Of a stretch of 64,000 nucleotides of DNA, positions 7,510-18,737 are shown piece by piece. Position 1 is the stretch's first letter. Every line of letters starts with the position of its first letter. Position numbers and translations under genes: made by a program. Origin of the DNA: Roseburia hominis A2-183 (GTDB lineage Bacteria; Bacillota; Clostridia; Lachnospirales; Lachnospiraceae); contig NC_015977.1 in the NCBI RefSeq assembly GCF_000225345.1, forward strand, positions 27,501 through 91,500, written 5' to 3'. Under the pieces are notes generated by a model. The model ran no database searches, was not told the origin of the DNA, and saw only the letters and a list, made by a program, of their open reading frames with translations.

Positions 7510-7617
7510 ACATGTTATCTTATTTTACATCAAGATCAGAAAAAGAAATGACGTTGCGCCAGGGGATGCAATGTTTTTTGGAATACAATATATGGTACTT
7601 AAGATATAAGGAAAACC

Positions 7618-7646
7618 TTGAAAAAAAGACTTCAAATGTATATGAT
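7618..7646 (+). promoter_or_regulatory. promoter of the diguanylate cyclase gene
   Basis: TTGAAA (7618-7623), a 17-bp spacer and TATGAT (7641-7646), with an inferred start near 7653. It lies inside the longest possible ORF, which argues for the later start codon at 7692. Confidence 0.65.
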
Positions 7647-7691
7647 AGAACTATGGAGAAAGGACGGTTTTCTGGGGGAGGGGACTGTACT

Positions 7692-8777
7692 ATGGTGCAA
7701 AAGATAAAGGACTTTGTATTAAAAGACGTGCAGAGCGAGAACGAGACGAAGAAGACGGCGGTTACGCTACGGATCAGCGCATTGATGCTGTGTCTGTACT
7801 TTTTAAGCCTGTTTGCTGTATTCTGCGCGATTAAGGATATCCGTTCAGCGGTGATCTGCCTGGTGTGTATAGGATGTTATCTCGTATCTTTTTACACGAC
7901 CTATCTGAATCATACGAAGTTTGCATCGATATTTTCGCAGGCGCTGATGGCGCTATGGATTCTGATTTTTATCTGGGAGTATGGCTGGGACTGCGGTGTA
8001 CAACATTTTGTGTTTGTGCTTCTGGTTCTCAATTTTACCGTGAGCGCGGGAACGATGGGAATGAAGATCGGCGCTGCGGCACTGGCATGTGCGTACCGTA
8101 TTTTTCTGTATGCCTATACGAACAGGTATGATCCGGTGACAAATATTTCTGTGGATACCGGTGTTCTTTTTCAGATTATCAATACGCTTGCTATTTTTGC
8201 GGAATTGACGGCAATCATGATCGTGTTTACCAGAGATTCGCAGGAGATGGAATACAAGCTTGTAAAATATAATGAGAAGCTGGAACACATGGCGTCCATC
8301 GATCCGCTTACCGGCCTGTACAACCGCTGGAGCATGCGGTCGTATCTGGAGAAAATCGCCGGAAAATATGCGTCCGGAGAGATTGGATATGTGTCAGTTG
8401 CAATCGGCGACATCGATTTTTTCAAAAAGACAAACGATACCTACGGGCATGATGCCGGGGATATGGTGTTGAAAGAACTGGCAAAAGTTTTTCTGGAGGC
8501 GATGGAAAAGGAAGGAAAAGTCTGCCGCTGGGGCGGAGAGGAATTCCTGTTTGTATTTCAGAATAAAAACGGCGATCAGGCGAATGAGGTACTTCACGAT
8601 ATATTGAAGAGAATCCGCGGCATGGGCATTCCTTATCAGAGCGATTGGATTCATGTCACCATGACATTTGGACTGGAGGAGTATAGCGGAGAGAAGGATA
8701 TGGAAACGATCATCCGTGCTGCGGATCAGAAGCTTTATCATGGGAAAGAGAACGGGCGGAACCAGATTGTATATTAA
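7692..8777 (+). CDS. membrane-bound diguanylate cyclase (GGDEF)
   Basis: A 361-aa protein that should make cyclic di-GMP from two GTP. The first 180 residues hold about six hydrophobic membrane segments forming an unclassified sensor region. The GGDEF domain begins around residue 204 (DPLTGLYNR) and has the active-site motif GGEEF at 281-285, which is a functional variant. The product-inhibition site RxxD is not present five residues before it, so feedback control may be absent. The start at 7692 follows GGGGGAGGGG, and the promoter lies downstream of the alternative start. The esterase-like gene follows after 23 bp, so the two may be co-transcribed. Confidence 0.9.
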   Translation: MVQKIKDFVLKDVQSENETKKTAVTLRISALMLCLYFLSLFAVFCAIKDIRSAVICLVCIGCYLVSFYTTYLNHTKFASIFSQALMALWILIFIWEYGWDCGVQHFVFVLLVLNFTVSAGTMGMKIGAAALACAYRIFLYAYTNRYDPVTNISVDTGVLFQIINTLAIFAELTAIMIVFTRDSQEMEYKLVKYNEKLEHMASIDPLTGLYNRWSMRSYLEKIAGKYASGEIGYVSVAIGDIDFFKKTNDTYGHDAGDMVLKELAKVFLEAMEKEGKVCRWGGEEFLFVFQNKNGDQANEVLHDILKRIRGMGIPYQSDWIHVTMTFGLEEYSGEKDMETIIRAADQKLYHGKENGRNQIVY

Positions 8778-9970: not shown

Positions 9971-11398
9971 ATGAAAGAGCAGATGACAGAGAAAAAGAAA
10001 CTGGAAGATGTGACGGAAGTTCAGATGAAATATCAAAAAGAGATCGAGGCGATTGTACGCGGAATGTCATCCCCGAAGGTGATGCGTGACAGACTTCTGG
10101 ATTATCATGAGAATGATATTGCGGCGGCGCTCGAAGACATGAATCCCACCGAGCGGCAGCGCCTGTACCGCATTCTAAATGCGGAGGAGATCTCGGAGGT
10201 TCTCTCCTACATCGATGAGGAGGAGATTCCGTTCTATCTGGAAGAGATGGATATGAAGAAAAAGGCAGCAGTCGTCTCGGAGATGGACGCAGATGAAATT
10301 GCCGATCTGCTGCGCCAGATGGACAAAAAAGAACGCGAGACGCTGACGGAGCTGCTCGATGAGGAGGTACGGCATAAGATCGATCTCATCGATTCTTTTG
10401 ATGAAGAGCAGATTGGAAACCGGATGTCCACCAACTATGTGGAGATTCCGTCTAATGTGACCGTAAAGCAGGCTATGCGCGAGTTGATCCGGCAGGCGGC
10501 AGACAATGACAACATATCCACACTTTACATTGTAGATGAGAACCGTATCTTCTGCGGTGCGATCAGTCTGAATGATCTCATCATCGCGCGGGAGGACACG
10601 AATCTGGAGGATCTGATCGTGGTGTCCTACCCGTTCGTCTATGCCACGGAGGAGATCGCGGACTGCATCGAATGGATCAAGGATTATTCCGAAGATTCCA
10701 TTCCAGTTCTGGACGAGGAGAACCGGATCATCGGAGTCATCACCTCGCAGGACATTGTTGAGGTGGTCGATGACGAGATGGGCGAGGATTATGCCATGCT
10801 CGCCGGTCTGACTGCGGAGGAAGATTTGGAAGAGCCGTTAAAAGACAGTATCAAAAAGCGTATGCCGTGGCTGATCGTGCTGCTCGGACTGGGACTGGTC
10901 GTGTCCTCCGTTGTGGGGATGTTCGAGCACGTGGTCGCAGAACTGACAATTGTCATGTGCTTTCAGTCGCTGATTCTCGATATGGCGGGAAATGTGGGAA
11001 CGCAGTCCCTGGCTGTGACGATCCGTGTGTTGATGGATGAAAATCTCACTGCCGGGCAGAAAGTGCACCTGGTCTTTAAGGAAGCACGCGTCGGACTTAG
11101 CAACGGTCTGATCCTTGGTATGATGTCAATTATCCTGATCGGGTGTTACATTTACTTTTTCAAGTCCGGCTCCCTGCAGTTCGCCTTTGCGGTGTCCGGC
11201 TGTATCGGAGCGGCGTTGATCCTTGCCATGCTGATCTCAAGCCTGGTGGGAACGCTGATCCCGATGTTTTTCCACAAAATTCATATTGATCCTGCCGTTG
11301 CATCCGGACCGCTCATCACGACGGTCAATGATCTGGTGGCGGTAGTGACATACTACGGGCTTGCGTGGCTCTTTTTGATCGAGATGCTGCACTATTGA
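9971..11398 (+). CDS. mgtE: magnesium transporter MgtE
   Basis: A 475-aa Mg2+ channel/transporter. It has the acidic N-terminal superhelical domain (about 1-135, rich in Asp and Glu), a pair of CBS domains (about 140-265), and a C-terminal membrane domain with five helices including the conserved region AGNVGTQSLA near 342-351. In this family the cytosolic domains sense Mg2+ and close the pore. Length and order are typical. The start at 9971 has GGTGG at good spacing; a start 12 nt earlier is possible. Leader sequences upstream suggest regulation at the RNA level. Confidence 0.93.
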   Translation: MKEQMTEKKKLEDVTEVQMKYQKEIEAIVRGMSSPKVMRDRLLDYHENDIAAALEDMNPTERQRLYRILNAEEISEVLSYIDEEEIPFYLEEMDMKKKAAVVSEMDADEIADLLRQMDKKERETLTELLDEEVRHKIDLIDSFDEEQIGNRMSTNYVEIPSNVTVKQAMRELIRQAADNDNISTLYIVDENRIFCGAISLNDLIIAREDTNLEDLIVVSYPFVYATEEIADCIEWIKDYSEDSIPVLDEENRIIGVITSQDIVEVVDDEMGEDYAMLAGLTAEEDLEEPLKDSIKKRMPWLIVLLGLGLVVSSVVGMFEHVVAELTIVMCFQSLILDMAGNVGTQSLAVTIRVLMDENLTAGQKVHLVFKEARVGLSNGLILGMMSIILIGCYIYFFKSGSLQFAFAVSGCIGAALILAMLISSLVGTLIPMFFHKIHIDPAVASGPLITTVNDLVAVVTYYGLAWLFLIEMLHY

Positions 11399-11418
11399 GG
11401 GGGACGAACCGGTCTTTA

Positions 11419-13287
11419 TCAGGAGAGCGGTTCGAACACAGCCTGGATATCGGCTCCGCTTTCGGGCAGAGTCACGCTGGTGGAAGGGTCTGTGATGTGT
11501 TCTCCGTTGATCAACCACTCCTTCAGCCGGTATCCATCCATTGGTTCTGCTGTGACAGTGACAGGATAGTCGGTGTAGTAGTTGCCGCTCCAGCTGCCGG
11601 AGGATAGATCCGGTGTGATCGTATTCAGCAGGATCTCTCCCATAGAGGCGTCATTGACCGAGAGGGTCACGGGCACGAGAGTGCCTGTCAGGGAAAAGGT
11701 TTCTGCGAGAGAGTCGTTGATATAAGCGGGGCGGTTGGCAAAGTATGCGTCCATCATATCAGGATCGTCGATATAGCCAAGACAGGTATCCATCGCCGCG
11801 CGCACGGTCGCGTAGGAAAAGTTCTGGTTTTCCAGGTCGAGGAAGGTCGTTACAAACTGTTGGCGGAAGGAGGCATTTGCGAGCAGGGATTTGAACATCG
11901 TCTCTTCCGTCTGGATTACGACAGCTGATTCTGTATCGGAAAAGCTGTTTGTGGCATAGTTTTCGACACCGCCGAAGGAAGTGAGAGACAGATCGACATC
12001 CATCAGGGAAAAACGCCATTTTCCATCGGCGTAGGGGTTTGCAGCATCGGTGCTGTCCGAACGCCACATGACCTGATTTTTCGATTCCGAAAAATCAAAG
12101 TTATTGATATAGATCTGGGTTGCATAATAATCAATATAACTCTGGATATCCAACTGTGAGCATACAGTATCATAGTTTTCTGAAATGCTTAGATCATTTG
12201 CATCCATATAAGCCAGAAGCTGTCTATAGTCTTCCAGAGAATATGCAGATCCCGAAAAAAGTTCCCCGTCTTTTAAAATCGTGACGTTGTCGTCATCGAC
12301 CTGGTAGTGCCCCGCCAGATAATCTGTATCATAACGCTCAATCATATAATAAATTCCCCAATATTCCCCATCAATAAATACAACACATGGAACATAATCC
12401 TGGGTTCCCATATTACGGTCGGCGACGAGCGAAGGAAGAAACTGATTAATAAATGTTCCTCGGCGCAGGATAACAGAGTTGGGATAGATGTTATTGCTGA
12501 AGATCGGGTAGGTGAACAGGCTGTTTCCGTCATATTTTTTTCGGGCATACAGGCGGAGACTTTTTCTGGAATCACCGCGGGAAGAGTTTCCGTTGATGCG
12601 GATTCCACCTTCCTGTGAAAAGGCATAGGTCTTATCCATATTAAAGTAGTCAATATGCACCGGACGTTCCCAGTCACTTCCCGTCTGCATAAAGTTGGCA
12701 TCCAGTTCATTTCCCGATTCGTAGTAGGAATCTCCCAGAACATAAATACCGGTTTTGGAATCGAACAGGTTGGAAGGATCCGTTATGAGTGATACAACGG
12801 AGTAACCGTCATAAAAGCCATCGTAGCCCACAAAATAGGTCTCGGTCACAACATCGGTTGATACACCGGCATCATTGATTCCAACTGCCCGGACGATATA
12901 AGCCTGGTCGGGCACATCGCCGGACACGTTGTTGCCATCAACGGAAAATATCGTCTGGTTTGCATACTTTTTTTCTGGGGAGGAAACGTTTGTGACGGCA
13001 AGCGGAGCCGTGTAGTGCTCGCTGGTCTCATCCGGAAGCGAGCCATCCAGCGTGTAGTAGATGGAAAAACCATCCGGTGCAGATAATGTCAGTGAAAAAT
13101 CATCATCGTAAAAGCCACTGGGGGCAGAAAAAGTGACGCAGTAGTCATCCACGTACTCTGTCTGTGAGCTTTCATCCGAAAGTGCGGGTGTTGCGTTTAA
13201 ATATTGTATTCCCATCAGAATTCCCACTAAGAGAAGAAACGCGGGGAGTACAAAAATATATTTTTTGATCTGATCAAATGATTTCAT
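11419..13287 (-). CDS. cotH: CotH kinase family protein, exported, catalytic residues present
   Basis: A 622-aa protein with an N-terminal membrane anchor (about 10-29). Next comes a beta-hexosaminidase C-terminal type domain with YYTLDGSLP near 77-85, then a CotH atypical kinase domain (about 160-560), and a C-terminal domain like the InlB B-repeat family (about 565-620). The kinase domain keeps a basic segment GNSSRGDSRKS near 233-243, Asp398 in NNFDFS and the metal-binding type motif DVDLS at 430-434. In Bacillus, CotH phosphorylates spore coat proteins. Here the protein should act outside the membrane. It is last in a four-gene operon with a polyphosphate polymerase, so its substrate may differ. 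The ribosome binding site is AGAGGA. Confidence 0.85.
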   Translation of the reverse strand: MKSFDQIKKYIFVLPAFLLLVGILMGIQYLNATPALSDESSQTEYVDDYCVTFSAPSGFYDDDFSLTLSAPDGFSIYYTLDGSLPDETSEHYTAPLAVTNVSSPEKKYANQTIFSVDGNNVSGDVPDQAYIVRAVGINDAGVSTDVVTETYFVGYDGFYDGYSVVSLITDPSNLFDSKTGIYVLGDSYYESGNELDANFMQTGSDWERPVHIDYFNMDKTYAFSQEGGIRINGNSSRGDSRKSLRLYARKKYDGNSLFTYPIFSNNIYPNSVILRRGTFINQFLPSLVADRNMGTQDYVPCVVFIDGEYWGIYYMIERYDTDYLAGHYQVDDDNVTILKDGELFSGSAYSLEDYRQLLAYMDANDLSISENYDTVCSQLDIQSYIDYYATQIYINNFDFSESKNQVMWRSDSTDAANPYADGKWRFSLMDVDLSLTSFGGVENYATNSFSDTESAVVIQTEETMFKSLLANASFRQQFVTTFLDLENQNFSYATVRAAMDTCLGYIDDPDMMDAYFANRPAYINDSLAETFSLTGTLVPVTLSVNDASMGEILLNTITPDLSSGSWSGNYYTDYPVTVTAEPMDGYRLKEWLINGEHITDPSTSVTLPESGADIQAVFEPLS

Positions 13288-13309
13288 AAGAGTATCCTCT
13301 TTCTCCTGT

Positions 13310-15046
13310 CTAATCGGAAAGTCCCTCTTCTGTGAGGAGATCTTCCAGGTAGCTTAAAATAAATACGGAGCGGTCGCGGAAGAACTGCGAAAATTCGCCT
13401 TCCAGATTGTCTGTATCCTCTTCCGGGTAAGTGGTGCCGGCAAGGAGTGCCTCTGCCGCAGCCTCGTTCAGCCGGTTTTCAGCAAGATCTGTGAAGTATT
13501 CCGAAAACCGGTCACGGAAATCGGGGTTCTGAAGGAGTACTTCAAACAGCGGATCAGTATCCTGCACGTGGGAAAATGTATTGGTCAGAGTATTGCTGTT
13601 TTGGGTAAAGAGAGCCCGGGACAGTCCGGTGATCTCATAATGCCATTTTCCATCGGAAAAGGTATTTCCCGGATCAACTGTTTCACTCCGCCAGACAAGG
13701 CAGGAGTCATAAGGTGAAAAATCATTGTCATTCAGAAGAATGTGCAGCACATAGTAGTTGATCAGGCTGTCAATATCGATCTTTTCACAGAAATTTTCAT
13801 AGGCAGCAGGATCGGTCAGACCGTTGGCTGTGGCATCTGCGATGAGTGCGCGGTATTCCAACAGTCCATAGGAAGAACCGTATGTCAGCTGGTTTTCGGT
13901 AAGTATGGTCAGATTCTTCCCGGAGACACCATAGGAAGACTTGAGATAGTTTTCATCGACAGGTTCTGCCAGATAATAGTTCCCGTAAAATGTGCCATTC
14001 AGGAAAACACTGCATGGGAGGAAGGAGACAGTCTGTATATTCTGCTGTGCCAGAAGCGTATAGAGCAGATACTGTTTATCTGCTCCGTGTAGAAGGAGCA
14101 GTCTGTCATGTTCTATACCATTACCGAAAAAATCTGTGGAAAACGTATCCGATCCATAGATATTCCGTGCATAAAGATTAAAATCCAGACACTGCAGATT
14201 ATTTGACCGCTTACTCACACGCAGTCCGCTGTAAAACGAACTCTCATTGGAACGATCCGGGGAGAAATAATCGACCTGGCATTCCCGTTCCGCTGTGCGG
14301 CCGGAGAGAGTTCTGTTTTCACTGAGAAAAATACCGTCATCGCCATAGAGAGAGTCCTCCGGGATGGAGATTGATAAAACGGCAGCATCGGCGGCTTCCG
14401 CAGGGAGTGACAGATCGGTTAACGGATAAGCGGGCTCTGCGGGCGCGTCATCCCTGTCCGCCCAGAAAGGAGCAGAGGCAGATGCGTTGTCCGTACAGGG
14501 AGTGCCGGTAAGAATTTTCCAGGTGTCCGCGCCGTCCGTCTCTCTGGCATACACGGTGTTGTAGGTGAGAGCAGGAACAGTCACGTAGTCGGTTGTTTTA
14601 TCGGAGGAATTGCGCAGATAGAGCGTGTCTCCATCTTTGGCGACAGAGCATGGGATTTCCAGAGAAAAGGAATCCTTCGGGGAGACGGTAATACTGGAAG
14701 TGTCTGTGTCGGATGCGGCATCATCCCTATGGATCAGCAGCACACGAGCCTGTGGTAACAGACGGATATCTCCAAAGGTGTACGTTCCTGAATCTTTTTT
14801 TCCGGTATGCAGGGTCCAGTTTAAAAGAGAAATGGTTGTATCGCCTGCATTATAGAGTTCAATATAATCAGCATATTTCCCGGCAGAATTTTCCACCAGA
14901 GAAAAATCGTTGCTGCACACTTCGTTGATCACGATCGTACGGGTATGTGATGCCTTGTGTGTTGCGATCAGGACAAGCAGAGTTGCAGCAACGAGCAACA
15001 GAAACAGAAAAAGTTCTTTTATATAGGTAGAAATCTTGAATTTCAT
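13310..15046 (-). CDS. lamin-tail domain plus degenerate CotH-like protein
   Basis: A 578-aa exported or membrane-anchored protein: N-terminal hydrophobic segment (about 10-28), lamin-tail domain (about 36-110, with VINEVCSND and YIELYN), then a CotH-like fold (about 250-560). Compared with its neighbour the kinase residues are lost. The segment matching the basic GNSSRGDSRKS stretch reads SKRSNNLQCL, and the position of DVDLS reads TGLSR. It is therefore a likely pseudokinase or scaffold. The start at 15046 follows GGAG; a start at 15064 would overlap the upstream stop codon. It sits 22 bp before the intact CotH gene. Confidence 0.8.
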   Translation of the reverse strand: MKFKISTYIKELFLFLLLVAATLLVLIATHKASHTRTIVINEVCSNDFSLVENSAGKYADYIELYNAGDTTISLLNWTLHTGKKDSGTYTFGDIRLLPQARVLLIHRDDAASDTDTSSITVSPKDSFSLEIPCSVAKDGDTLYLRNSSDKTTDYVTVPALTYNTVYARETDGADTWKILTGTPCTDNASASAPFWADRDDAPAEPAYPLTDLSLPAEAADAAVLSISIPEDSLYGDDGIFLSENRTLSGRTAERECQVDYFSPDRSNESSFYSGLRVSKRSNNLQCLDFNLYARNIYGSDTFSTDFFGNGIEHDRLLLLHGADKQYLLYTLLAQQNIQTVSFLPCSVFLNGTFYGNYYLAEPVDENYLKSSYGVSGKNLTILTENQLTYGSSYGLLEYRALIADATANGLTDPAAYENFCEKIDIDSLINYYVLHILLNDNDFSPYDSCLVWRSETVDPGNTFSDGKWHYEITGLSRALFTQNSNTLTNTFSHVQDTDPLFEVLLQNPDFRDRFSEYFTDLAENRLNEAAAEALLAGTTYPEEDTDNLEGEFSQFFRDRSVFILSYLEDLLTEEGLSD

Positions 15047-15063
15047 CGGAATCTCCAAAATCA

Positions 15064-15741
15064 TTAAAAACGGCGTTCTCCGTCATGGGACAGGATAGAA
15101 ACATGTGTAACATGGGAAAGTTCATGAAGTGTGGCAAGGAGCGTGGCATCTTCATTTTCTTTACACTTAAATTCGATCACAAGATCCAAACCGTCTTTCG
15201 TGAGACTTTTGGATTTTACATCAAAAGATTTGGTGTGGGACTTCACGAGATTTTCAATTTCGGAAAAAGTGTTGACATCGGAACTGTTGACGATTAGAAG
15301 TAACGCTGCCTTCGGTGTCGGAACCAGGTCGAGCAGGAATAAGAGAACAGTCAGGATCAGGGAAGCCACAAATGCGATCTCATAGAGTCCGGCGCCACAG
15401 ATGATACCAATACTGATGGACCAGAATAAAAAGACAAGATCCATAGAGCTTTTGATGGCATTCCGGAAACGGACGATTGAAAGTGCACCGACCATACCAA
15501 GTGAGATGACCAGGTTCGACTGCATGGCAAGCACGATGGCAGCAGTGATAACGGACATCAGGGCGATGGATTTGTTAAATTCTTTGGAATAGAAGCTGGA
15601 CTTCGTTGTCATCCGGTAGATATAAAAGATGTAAAGGGACAGTACAACGGCAAGTCCCAGGGAAATACATACCCTTGCCAGGGAAATGTCAGCGGTAAAA
15701 TTTTCAAGAACAGAATTCTTGATGATATCTTTGGTGCTCAT
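15064..15741 (-). CDS. DUF4956 domain membrane protein
   Basis: A 225-aa protein with about four membrane segments in the first 145 residues, including VVLSLYIFYIYR and conserved ALSIVRFRNAIK. A soluble C-terminal domain of about 75 residues follows. This matches the DUF4956 family, whose genes are often next to VTC-type polymerase and CotH genes. The biochemical role is unknown. Given the context, it could be the membrane partner of the polymerase or help move its product. The ribosome binding site AGGAGG is strong. It sits 23 bp after the polymerase gene, and the next gene starts close behind its stop. Confidence 0.82.
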   Translation of the reverse strand: MSTKDIIKNSVLENFTADISLARVCISLGLAVVLSLYIFYIYRMTTKSSFYSKEFNKSIALMSVITAAIVLAMQSNLVISLGMVGALSIVRFRNAIKSSMDLVFLFWSISIGIICGAGLYEIAFVASLILTVLLFLLDLVPTPKAALLLIVNSSDVNTFSEIENLVKSHTKSFDVKSKSLTKDGLDLVIEFKCKENEDATLLATLHELSHVTHVSILSHDGERRF

Positions 15742-15764
15742 AAATAACCTCCTCGTATGGATAC

Positions 15765-16454
15765 TTATAATTGGTTGGTAATATCACACGCCTGTCTGCA
15801 GAGAAAATATTTGGAGCAGGCGGTCTGGGTCAACGTGTCAAGCTCTAACAGCTGGGCAATGTGATCCGGCAGCAGTTCATCGTATTTTACTTCTAAAACA
15901 TGCTCATGTGTGGGCAGGACAGGGATGCGGGCATTTTGTGCCGAAAAGAAACCCGATGGATCTGCGATTGCGGAAATATTCCGGTCGAATGTAATACGTA
16001 CATTTCCGATCGGATAAGTAAACGCAGTACGCTCGTATTCGACGATGACGGCAGGGTGCAGAAACTGCAGGTGCTCTTTTAAGTAAATCTGACTGAGAAC
16101 GGAAGAATCATTATCTGCAGGTAGAAAGTGCCCGGCAATCAGATCCTCGCACTGACTGCGGGTGATCGGGACTGTAGATTTTTTCGTTTTTCCACGCAAT
16201 TTTTCTTTGATCTCAAACCGGATATTTGAATCAGAATGATCGTAAATACGGATACGATATTTTTTCCTGTCATCCACGCCGGCAGAATTTTCGTAATAGC
16301 ACTGATTGTCTGCGGTATCAAAATAGAGACTACTGATCGTATAGGATGAATCCTTCTGATGGACATCATAGGGAAGGATGGCTTTAAGCCGGTGTTTTAA
16401 GATCTCCAACTGATAGTCGGAACAGAAATATTTTCTCTCCTCACGGTATTCCAT
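15765..16454 (-). CDS. VTC-domain polyphosphate polymerase
   Basis: A 229-aa cytoplasmic protein of the VTC domain family, the tunnel fold that makes polyphosphate from ATP in eukaryotic VTC4. The charged tunnel residues are visible: the first-strand Lys in REERKYF, Arg-x-Arg in KKYRIRIY, FEIKEK, YERTAF, ITFDR and LEVKYDE near the end. The set looks complete, so an active enzyme is expected. The start at 16454 has a GGAG site. The longer ORF begins inside the -10 box of the promoter and is rejected. First gene of the operon with DUF4956 and two CotH-type proteins. Confidence 0.85.
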   Translation of the reverse strand: MEYREERKYFCSDYQLEILKHRLKAILPYDVHQKDSSYTISSLYFDTADNQCYYENSAGVDDRKKYRIRIYDHSDSNIRFEIKEKLRGKTKKSTVPITRSQCEDLIAGHFLPADNDSSVLSQIYLKEHLQFLHPAVIVEYERTAFTYPIGNVRITFDRNISAIADPSGFFSAQNARIPVLPTHEHVLEVKYDELLPDHIAQLLELDTLTQTACSKYFLCRQACDITNQL

Positions 16455-16522
16455 GACAGATACTCCTTTATCATTGAAAAAGAAGGGATATGCAAAATGC
16501 AGTCCCCTCTTTGTCTTGTTGT

Positions 16523-16551
16523 ATTCTAGCATGCACTATCTTATTTTACAA
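16523..16551 (-). promoter_or_regulatory. promoter of the VTC/DUF4956/CotH operon
   Basis: On the minus strand: TTGTAA (16546-16551), a 17-bp spacer and TAGAAT (16523-16528), with a start near 16516. The -35 box overlaps the 3' end of tyrS. It gives the four downstream genes their own promoter. Confidence 0.6.
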
Positions 16552-17767
16552 TGATTTTGACGAATTTCTTCTTGCCGCGTTTTACGACAAGACCGTCAGC
16601 ACCGAAGGAATCAGCGCTGTAGGTGGTCTTGATATCGGTGACCTTTGCATCTGCAACGCTCACGCCGCCCTGCTCAACGGCACGTCTTGCATCGGAGCGG
16701 GATGGAGCAAGCTCTGTCTTCACGAGAAGTGCAAGGATGTCGAGATCGCCCTCTGCAAAATCAGCAGCCGAAAGCTCTACGGTCGGCATGTGTGCGGAAT
16801 CTCTGCCGCCTGCAAAGAGTGCATGGGATGCCTCGCGTGCCTTGGCAGCTTCCTCCTCGCCGTGTACCAGCTTGGTCAGCTCGAAAGCTAAGATTTCTTT
16901 TGCCTGGTTTAACTGTGCGCCTTCCCAGCTCTCCATTGCGTCGATCTCCTCGAGCGGAAGGAAGGTCAGCATACGGATGCACTTTAAGACATCGGAGTCA
17001 GCCACGTTTCTCCAGTACTGGAAGAAATCGAATGGGGAGGTCTTCTCCGGATCAAGCCATACAGCGCCGGACTGCGTCTTACCCATCTTTTTGCCTTCGG
17101 AATTAAGGAGCAGGTTGATCGTCATGGCGTAAGCGTCTTTTCCGAGCTTACGGCGGATCAGCTCCGTACCGCCGAGCATGTTGCTCCACTGGTCGTCGCC
17201 GCCGAACTCCATGTTGCAGCCGTATTTCTGGAATAAGGTGTAGAAATCGTAGCTCTGCATAATCATGTAGTTGAACTCAAGGAAGCTTAAGCCCTTTTCC
17301 ATACGCTGCTTGTAGCACTCAGCGGTCAGCATGCGGTTTACGGAGAAATGAGCGCCGACCTCGCGCAGAACATCAATGTAATTTAAGTCCATCAGCCAGT
17401 CCGCGTTGTTGACCATGAGCGCTTTGCCGTCGGAAAAATCAATAAAGCGGCTCATCTGCTTCTTGAAGCAGTCGCAGTTGTGCTGGATGGTCTCCGGTGT
17501 CATCATCTGGCGCATGTCGGTACGGCCGGACGGATCACCGATCATGGCAGTACCGCCGCCGATTAAGGCGATCGGCTTGTTGCCTGCCTGCTGGAGGCGC
17601 TTCATTAAGCAGAGCGCCATGAAATGTCCGACATGCAGACTGTCTGCAGTCGGGTCAAACCCAATGTAGAAGGTTGCTTTTCCGTTGTTGATCAGTTCTT
17701 TGATCTCTTCTTCGTCTGTTACCTGCGCGATTAAGCCGCGGGCAACTAATTCATCGTATAATGTCAT
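16541..17767 (-). CDS. tyrS: tyrosyl-tRNA synthetase
   Basis: A 408-aa class I aminoacyl-tRNA synthetase that charges tRNA-Tyr. The Rossmann domain has the HIGH-type motif as HVGH near 46-49, the tyrosine-pocket region [12 protein letters not shown] near 68-79, QSYDFYTL near 175, GGDDQWSNM near 191 and the KMSKS-type motif KMGKT near 232. The C-terminal S4-like RNA-binding domain (about 340-408) includes SRSDARRAV. The start at 17767 has an AAGGAA site. Expression is controlled by the T-box upstream. Confidence 0.96.
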
Positions 17768-17860
17768 GATGTCAGTTCCTTTCTTTGTGGTTGTAGTTGT
17801 GGTTGTCTTTTTCTGGCGGCGGTACAACAGCCGAACAGTGCCGGACCGTTGCTGCCGCAC

Positions 17861-18161
17861 AAAAAACCCCCGTCCTTCAAAAAGGACGAGGGTATAAACT
17901 CGTGTTACCACCTTTGTTCACAGACCATTCACACGGTCTGCCTCTGCGAGTGTCCGACAACACTCAGGCGCTTGTAACGTGCGCCGCTACGTCACAGCCT
18001 ACTATCACATCACCGCAAAAAGAACGGTCATGCAAATTGGGTGTGAAGCTCGGGGATGTATTCGTAATAAGCTTTCCGTGCACCTCTCATCAGCCGGTTG
18101 CTTTCTGTTCGTTCCACTTATTCTTACTTCTTCCCGTCAAAGCCTGTGTTCTGCTCCGATT
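17861..18161 (-). promoter_or_regulatory. T-box leader of tyrS (tyrosine specifier)
   Basis: A leader of about 300 nt. It carries the T-box element AAAGGTGGTAACACG on the minus strand at about 17901-17915. This is followed by a terminator hairpin with stem CGTCCTT and AAGGACG and T6 ending at 17861. Upstream, GAATACA holds a likely specifier codon TAC (Tyr) at 18058-18060, followed by the usual purine. Uncharged tRNA-Tyr pairing there should favour antitermination. The identity of the downstream gene supports the specificity. Confidence 0.9.
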
Positions 18162-18167
18162 AACGCC

Positions 18168-18197
18168 ATTATAGACGCGGCCGTGCGCATTTGTCAA
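18168..18197 (-). promoter_or_regulatory. promoter of the tyrS T-box transcript
   Basis: A perfect SigA promoter on the minus strand: TTGACA (18192-18197), an 18-bp spacer and TATAAT (18168-18173). Confidence 0.85.
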
Positions 18198-18281
18198 CCG
18201 GAAAATAAATATTGTGTATAATTGCGAAACTTTTTCCCAATAATACCAGCATAGAAAAAAATAAGAAAAGAGGTAACAACG

Positions 18282-18737
18282 ATGGTATTAAGTGAAAAAG
18301 AGACAGCGGCGATCAAAGATCTCCAGACCCAGGAGAAAACCTGCGTGGAGAAGTATTCCCGATACAGCAAAGAGGCGAAGGATCCGGTTCTCGTGAACCT
18401 GTTCACCGATCTTCACAAGAAGGAGCAGCAGCACTTTGACTCGCTGGGACAGGTGTTAAACGGTACCGTGCCGAACTGCAACTGCAACGACAGCGATGGA
18501 AAGAATTATAACCCGACCGCCACCTACTCCCTCGCGGAGTCCGAGGACAAGAAAAACGACTGCTTCCTTGCGACTGACTGTATCGGTACCGAGAAGCTGG
18601 TGTCTTCCGAGTATAATACCGACGTGTTTGTATTTGCCGATCCGGGCGTCCGCAAACTGCTCGCAGACATTCAGGTGGAGGAGCAGAATCATGCGGAGAT
18701 GCTCTATAAGTATAAGACTGTCAACAGCATGTCATAA
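18282..18737 (+). CDS. CotF-like / ferritin-like spore coat protein
   Basis: A 151-aa mostly helical protein resembling the Coat F/ferritin-like family annotated as spore coat proteins in Clostridia. It has two helical hairpin regions (about 1-60 and 112-150) with repeated Glu-rich segments, KKEQQHFDSL and EEQNHAEML, separated by a Cys-containing loop (NCNCND). The acidic and His residues could bind metal, but this is not proven. A TATAAT at 18217-18222 lies 60 bp upstream, with a poor -35 box. The ribosome binding site is AGAGG. A strong terminator follows. Confidence 0.75.
   Translation: MVLSEKETAAIKDLQTQEKTCVEKYSRYSKEAKDPVLVNLFTDLHKKEQQHFDSLGQVLNGTVPNCNCNDSDGKNYNPTATYSLAESEDKKNDCFLATDCIGTEKLVSSEYNTDVFVFADPGVRKLLADIQVEEQNHAEMLYKYKTVNSMS

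Follow-up and report, generated by a model that had tools for sequence, protein, structure and literature searches.

A Candidate Membrane-Coupled Polyphosphate Synthase Operon with Two CotH Proteins, Distant from the pel-Like Locus of Roseburia hominis A2-183

Introduction

Genes encoding CotH, a polyphosphate polymerase, DUF4956 and DUF4832 have been described as accessory genes of the pel loci of streptococci and clostridia (Whitfield et al. 2020, PMC7112168). The accessory genes of the Gram-positive pelDEADAFG locus of Streptococcus intermedius (SIR_1591–1594) bring three of these families, CotH, the polymerase and DUF4956, together in one tight cluster. Here we describe an operon of Roseburia hominis A2-183 that contains the same three families. 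It lies in a stretch of 64,000 nucleotides (contig NC_015977.1, positions 27,501 to 91,500; hereafter the window) and consists of a VTC-type polymerase gene, a DUF4956 gene, a gene for a lamin-tail-domain (LTD) CotH protein and a second CotH gene. The operon differs from the pelDEADAFG accessory set in having no adjacent pel genes, in that DUF4832 lies elsewhere, in its additional, degenerate LTD-CotH protein, and in a VTC that falls outside the clade of the sampled Pel-linked VTCs.

Three other systems invite comparison. In Clostridium perfringens the NELoc-2 locus (CP4_0460–0465) contains a VTC gene followed by a gene for a membrane protein of 222–226 aa and then a CotH gene; in order, its genes are annotated as VTC, “tubulin/FtsZ GTPase,” resolvase, VTC, “tubulin” and CotH (PMC2879425). 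The supposed tubulins, CP4_0461 and CP4_0464, are probably DUF4956 proteins, because their size, membrane location and place match. Unlike the window operon, NELoc-2 has a second VTC copy, together with a resolvase and a chitin-synthase-like gene (PMC2879425). The VTC complex of yeast and protists (Vtc1/3/4) shares with the operon a catalytic tunnel fold and a membrane part, whereas in the window that part is a separate MgtC-like protein, with neither an SPX domain nor an organelle. Finally, the VTC-DUF4956-Cthe_2159 operons described below (type B) have the same two-gene core, but carry a secreted carbohydrate-binding protein in place of CotH and often have two-component genes nearby.

We propose, giving it about an even chance, that the window operon encodes a membrane-coupled polyphosphate synthase that is free-standing rather than Pel-linked and serves a surface kinase. 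The trio as a Pel accessory set is already in print; the near-absolute coupling of VTC to DUF4956 and a two-type rule for the secreted partner are new regularities.

Results and Discussion

Coupling of VTC and DUF4956

A sequence-only reading of the window had treated the VTC, DUF4956 and CotH genes as one functional set whose neighbourhood should recur in other genomes, and it recurs in both collections surveyed, of 80 loci and of 120 genomes. The loci are the best 80 of at least 581 relatives found by scanning GTDB contigs with a VTC alignment. DUF4956 is present in 80/80 and CotH in the flank of 72/80. By the printed positions DUF4956 adjoins VTC in 78 loci, and CotH stands between them in L024 and L033. 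The contig of L024 is titled Muribaculum (Bacteroidota), and its VTC groups with that of Acetatifactor (Lachnospiraceae) at support values of 100/97, reflecting either contamination or transfer. No close VTC relative was confirmed in viral contigs.

The family survey covered 120 genomes, each from a different genus of the family, and found VTC in 91, DUF4956 in 89, CotH in 60 and PelG in 26. DUF4956 occurs in 89 of the 91 genomes with VTC and in none of the 29 without it (p = 8e-26); the corresponding figures are 57 and 3 for CotH (p = 9e-7) and 23 and 3 for PelG (p = 0.12), all three p values being uncorrected for phylogeny. DUF4956 lies within 5 kb at 124 of the 130 VTC places, a total that includes fragments at G011:C12, G015:C53 and G025:C6. 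At three of the six remaining places DUF4956 is on a different contig, and two more are fragments of VTC. Among 14 control genomes, the same three carry VTC and DUF4956 at the level of genome presence; C. glutamicum and M. acetivorans also have CotH, and Bacteroides ihuae has Cthe_2159. Because the coupling is near-absolute, the earlier suggestion that a polymer is made at the membrane is well supported.

Surface-glycan families were compared between 20 stretches around CotH-linked VTC places (CotH-side stretches, including two, L192 and L197, that are imperfect trios) and 40 background stretches placed arbitrarily. GT2 was near in 7/20 against 4/40, and Bac_transf and LCP each in 3/20 against 0/40 (p = 0.03 in every case, uncorrected for multiple tests or kinship), while GtrA (2/20 against 1/40) did not differ significantly. 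The scanned part around the window operon contains no such neighbours. We do not use this enrichment as main evidence, since it is weak, uncorrected and absent around the scanned window operon.

Two Lineages and Two Secreted Partners

Where a VTC place lacks CotH, a secreted Cthe_2159 carbohydrate-binding protein (PF14262; E 2e-79 in the single protein scanned) is encoded in nine of the 20 surrounding stretches examined (L202, L203, L205–L209, L212 and L217), directly 3′ of DUF4956 in eight of the nine. Response regulator and histidine kinase genes are near in seven of these; L212 has only the response regulator and L209 neither. The histidine kinase family was found in 11/20 CotH-less stretches, 3/20 CotH-side stretches and 4/40 background stretches. 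Across the 124 VTC-DUF4956 places, CotH is linked at no fewer than 54 and Cthe_2159 at no fewer than 41, and both together at 0 among the matches listed (p = 4e-14). Eleven genomes harbour one place of each kind. CotH or Cthe_2159 occurs somewhere in the genome in 89 of the 91 genomes with VTC versus 10 of the 29 without it.

Quick tree searches with VTC (76 rows) and with DUF4956 (58 rows) give the same two types, with a value of 100 at the split in the SH-like approximate likelihood ratio test; types were assigned by hand from the VTC tree. Type A has CotH at 38 of 40 places, neither partner at two and Cthe_2159 at none. The 18 type B places comprise nine with Cthe_2159, eight with no partner and one with CotH on the opposite strand. 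Stretches were picked by CotH linkage, so that the proportions of the two types are a product of design, while their agreement with the trees is not. The counts leave out L135, L197 and L204, where no full VTC was called, and use Pfam, the home-made CotH profile having missed Pfam CotH at L119, L121, L122, L125, L130, L179 and L191. A freely exchangeable partner is not what the two trees suggest, the partner following lineage in both. These trees show the CotH version to be one of two deeply split VTC-DUF4956 lineages, the second of which occurs with Cthe_2159 or alone. The rule is drawn from one bacterial family and the 14 control genomes, and it offers a simple handle on the function of the VTC-DUF4956 core.

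The Polymerase and Its Membrane Partner

The AlphaFold2 (AF2) model of the window VTC (pLDDT 92) has yeast Vtc4 (3g3r) as its top PDB match (E 3.7e-14; TM 0.73 by query length), and Pfam, the model and the fold match agree on a triphosphate tunnel fold. Thirteen columns are invariant in 20/20 aligned rows, the window VTC included: R4, E6, K8, R67, R69, K83, K92, R142 and R153, and also D157, E188, K190 and K215. We take these basic and acidic columns to be the tunnel residues, their individual roles being presumed. Profile alignment links positions 11–165 with Vtc4; the correspondence outside that range rests on Pfam coverage. Loss of the tunnel residues, which the earlier reading had named as the danger to its own proposal, is thus not what alignment reveals: invariant columns, Vtc4 profile and fold match all point to their retention. 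Neither a hydrophobic segment within the 229 aa nor a Pfam match to SPX was found, and the protein does not have the build of a eukaryotic-type catalytic chain with transmembrane and SPX domains. We take it to be a tunnel domain only, located in the cytoplasm, and as such it would make polyphosphate from ATP.

DUF4956 has five hydrophobic segments and an ACT/ferredoxin-like C-terminal domain (AF2 model, pLDDT 85.5), for which fold searches match, among others, ACT domains and the MgtC C-terminal domain (2lqj). It scores 21.8 bits with Pfam MgtC, short of the cut-off of 31.4 for placement in MgtC/SapB, and no convincing PDB relative was found by sequence. Among 86 homologues, 44 have five hydrophobic segments, 37 have four and five have three. 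The best-conserved stretch, SLGMVGALSI-RFR-A-K, is invariant over 35 rows; its basic end probably faces the cytoplasm, because this is where the helix count puts it when the C-terminal domain is inside. The DUF4956 gene is split across two frames at L031:10702–11373 and L050:6930–7698.

The Two CotH Proteins

Each CotH protein of the window has one N-terminal hydrophobic segment, at residues 18–34 in LTD-CotH and 11–27 in the second CotH. Such a segment is found in 121 of 130 aligned CotH rows (128 without the two window proteins, which are rows of L088). Both proteins appear to be membrane-anchored and are taken as facing outside. The second CotH also bears carbohydrate-binding-like and InlB-B-repeat-like domains. 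The CotH profile matches the B. cereus-type CotH structure 5jd9 (E 2.3e-22), and CotH is known to have catalytic residues equivalent to those of PKA (PMC12189002). By our own count of columns on chain 5jd9, D398, N404 and D430 of the second CotH are the equivalents of PKA D166, N171 and D184; K242, E317 and D432 are likewise retained. The conserved Asn is residue 404, residue 405 being Q, and D430 is kept in 123 of the 128 other aligned CotH proteins.

LTD-CotH retains the equivalents of E317 and D398 and is changed at four sister positions (K242 to L, N404 to S, D430 to G and D432 to S), from which it is predicted to be a pseudokinase. The sequence-only reading had described two surface-facing kinase-like proteins; this holds for the second CotH, which keeps its catalytic residues, and fails for LTD-CotH, which looks catalytically dead. 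Among the 80 loci there are 19 tandem CotH pairs, of which one contains a clearly degenerate copy (L041) and another a truncated frame (L009); by this sample, then, an active/inactive pair is unusual. The L041 protein with altered catalytic positions is encoded at L041:10799–12331, where three CotH genes stand in tandem. The window CotHs are nearest to one another (163.5 bits between CotH and LTD-CotH, against 111.5 for the best match elsewhere in 397 genomes). With the second CotH as the only query, plasmid records gave a single remote match, from Deinococcus, at 28%.

Proposed Function and Alternative Explanations

In the mechanism that we consider, VTC would dock on DUF4956 and synthesise polyphosphate on the inner side of the membrane; DUF4956 would anchor the enzyme and probably guide the chain into or through the membrane. 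The yeast VTC complex makes its polymer on the cytosolic face of an organelle, and transit via the membrane domains has been proposed (PMC10657179). In bacteria DUF4956 would take the place of those domains. Outside the cell CotH would phosphorylate a surface protein or glycan, with the degenerate LTD-CotH as its putative scaffold or activator. The earlier suggestion of a polymer moved at the membrane and used or sensed by CotH is compatible with this scheme, which we infer from gene content and homology.

Several observations speak against this scheme. The same genome also encodes PPK1. In S. intermedius, deletion of the polymerase gene SIR_1593 leaves aggregation and Pel in place, while deletion of SIR_1592 (an MgtC/ACT protein that we equate with DUF4956) gives more Pel and less aggregation, and deletion of SIR_1594 (CotH) gives less of both (PMC12345266); this pattern does not speak for a single obligate pathway. 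CotH is not bound to VTC: at least 57 of 142 listed CotH genes lie within 10 kb of it, and the B. subtilis control genome has CotH without VTC. Cthe_2159 is similarly independent, at least 42 of 94 listed genes lying within 6 kb of VTC; the 10 VTC-less genomes with one or other partner belong here too, as do the 29 of 124 VTC-DUF4956 places with neither within 6 kb among the matches listed. None of the 50 fold matches listed for DUF4956 relates its membrane part to a channel. At position 429, where the ATP-stacking Trp245 of B. cereus CotH would be expected, the second CotH has Met rather than an aromatic residue; the column reads W in 87, Y in 19 and F in 14, or 120 aromatic of 130 rows with a letter (window rows included). 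A hydrophobic segment past residue 100 occurs in 22/130 CotH rows. Literature searches found no biochemistry on a bacterial VTC-DUF4956 pair.

A bolder form of the proposal, and in our judgement a long shot, is that VTC-DUF4956 is a polyphosphate synthase-exporter and that the polymer, not ATP, is the donor or substrate for the surface CotH. ATP is scarce outside cells. Under this form the core of the second lineage would serve Cthe_2159, the Pel link would be one later recruitment of a general system, and in the window the pseudokinase–kinase pair would substitute for a single CotH. Polyphosphate as a CotH donor is not proposed in the available parts of the literature on these gene sets (PMC7112168, PMC2879425, PMC12345266). 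Searches pairing “polyphosphate polymerase” with “carbohydrate-binding domain-containing protein” found nothing, and wider terms gave no CotH among the matches listed. The operon makes testable a neglected question, that of the phosphate donor of bacterial kinases anchored outside the cell.

The strongest competing explanation, unlikely though far from negligible, is that DUF4956 acts as an MgtC-like regulator in the economy of phosphate, Mg2+ or ATP, with VTC as a phosphate sink, CotH as a regulatory or surface add-on, and a polymer that never crosses the membrane. The resemblance to the MgtC family and the ACT-like C-terminal domain are in keeping with it, as is the rise in Pel on deletion of SIR_1592, whose authors discuss phosphate metabolism in the same paper (PMC12345266). 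However, such a regulator leaves unexplained why the secreted partner tracks the VTC lineage so closely.

Relation to Pel Loci

The trio has also been reported in streptococci and bifidobacteria (PMC7112168). A 2025 paper on S. intermedius argues for the relevance of the trio to Pel from its absence elsewhere, its analyses finding no syntenic trio outside the Pel locus (PMC12345266). The present counts contradict that absence. At least 54 trio places occur in 38 of the 120 genomes; PelG lies within 10 kb of eight of these places but not of the other 46, draft contig ends possibly hiding some linkage; 37 of these 46 sit in 26 genomes without any PelG match. In the window Pfam identifies CotH, the polymerase and DUF4956, and the operon is not contiguous with pelDEADAFG: the sole PelG match of the genome is at C1:1908522, 1.7–1.9 Mb from the operon (window, C1:27501–91500).

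This PelG belongs to a pel-like locus (L006, G000:C1:1897000–1916999) with PelG identified by Pfam, a presumed PelF, a PelD-epimerase (PelF and PelD being named by place and resemblance, not Pfam), DUF2194, Stealth, NTP_transf_5, a polysaccharide flippase-like protein, an 829-aa protein without a Pfam match and two DUF4832/DUF4874 proteins. CotH, VTC and DUF4956 are absent from it, and the window genes are the only matches to these families in the genome. The window operon could accordingly be imagined as a Pel accessory set relocated from the pel locus and acting on Pel in trans, an explanation that draws on the published accessory role of the three families (PMC7112168), on the sole copies in the window, and on the gene order of the nearest VTC relative, L010, which is of the Pel type, CotH-VTC-DUF4956. 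For this last reason gene order was ruled out as an argument against a Pel origin. We nevertheless regard relocation as improbable. In a VTC tree of 107 rows, which carries a long-branch warning that includes the Pel-linked row L118, all eight Pel-linked VTCs and 10 unlinked ones fall on one side of a 99/97 branch. The window VTC falls on the other, beside the VTC of a Roseburia metagenome-assembled genome (MAG; 100/97); with its VTC outside the Pel-linked clade, the window operon probably does not descend from a Pel set that was displaced. The lack of association between VTC and PelG and the trio places in PelG-less genomes, both given above, point the same way. The 80 loci, many of which have flanks under 10 kb, gave no match to the PelG and presumed PelF of the window genome at the thresholds used; a separate search gave weak PelF matches to glycosyltransferases in L031.

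Operon Layout and Upstream Region

Open reading frame calls and Pfam confirm a co-directional run of four genes in the window (Table 1), named as the sequence-only reading had named them, and the tight spacing that it reported is borne out. The junctions are 23 bp (VTC/DUF4956), a 1-bp overlap (DUF4956/LTD-CotH, TAATG) and 22 bp (LTD-CotH/CotH). VTC starts at an ATG with an AAAGGAG site, a longer alternative ATG being possible at 16532, and ribosome-binding-like sites precede VTC, DUF4956 and CotH.

Table 1. Features of the operon and of the region upstream of it (window positions).
Feature	Position	Strand	Size and evidence
VTC-type polyphosphate polymerase	15765..16454	-	229 aa; Pfam VTC E 1.1e-39
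DUF4956 membrane protein, MgtC-like	15064..15741	-	225 aa; Pfam DUF4956 E 2.4e-12
LTD + degenerate CotH protein	13310..15064	-	584 aa; Pfam CotH E 9.9e-16, LTD 6.5e-13
CotH kinase (second CotH)	11419..13287	-	622 aa; Pfam CotH E 2.2e-30
Second CotH, further Pfam domains	within 11419..13287	-	CHB_HEX_C_1, Fn3_assoc, Flg_new_2
Hairpin with U-rich arm, between the stop of tyrosyl-tRNA synthetase and the start of VTC	16479..16512	-	folding
Sigma-70-like site proposed earlier	16523..16551	-	9/12 base matches

A decaying or recently acquired operon of little function is a distinctly doubtful explanation. It would fit the loss of catalytic residues from LTD-CotH, the scattered relatives of VTC (the best among 29 further genomes of the genus reaches 35% identity, against 50% for one from a Roseburia MAG), and a G+C content at third codon positions (GC3) of 0.48–0.53 against 0.66–0.67 in the flanking MgtE and tyrosyl-tRNA synthetase genes. 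Yet all four frames are open, the invariant residues of VTC, DUF4956 and the second CotH are intact, and GC3 is equally low or lower (0.36–0.53) in further genes nearby in the window. Pseudokinase partners are, moreover, a known design. GC3 and the patchy occurrence in the genus fit acquisition from elsewhere, without proving it. A role in sporulation or the spore coat, with CotH acting on coat proteins and polyphosphate in the spore, is very improbable, for although CotH is a spore-coat kinase in Bacillus (PMC12189002) and a Coat_F/ferritin-like protein gene lies at window 18282–18737, the set is present in streptococci and bifidobacteria (PMC7112168), neither of which sporulates, and the N-terminal membrane anchors suggest an outside location.

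The promoter that the sequence-only reading assigned to the operon is not borne out: sites scoring like it number 13 in 11300–18300, compared with 9.2 ± 3.1 in shuffles, and it is indistinguishable from chance. No riboswitch was found upstream of the operon, the Rfam matches in the window at gathering thresholds being confined to one rRNA and three tRNAs. The hairpin in Table 1 may terminate transcription of the tyrosyl-tRNA synthetase gene or act as a leader element; it is absent from the terminator-scan results. The whole 86-base gap in which it lies has a folding z of −2.5, with 2/200 shuffles equally stable. A few kb from the operon, at window 7512–8777, is a GGDEF diguanylate cyclase gene, in a genome that has a pel-like locus; c-di-GMP controls Pel in B. 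cereus (PMC7112168).

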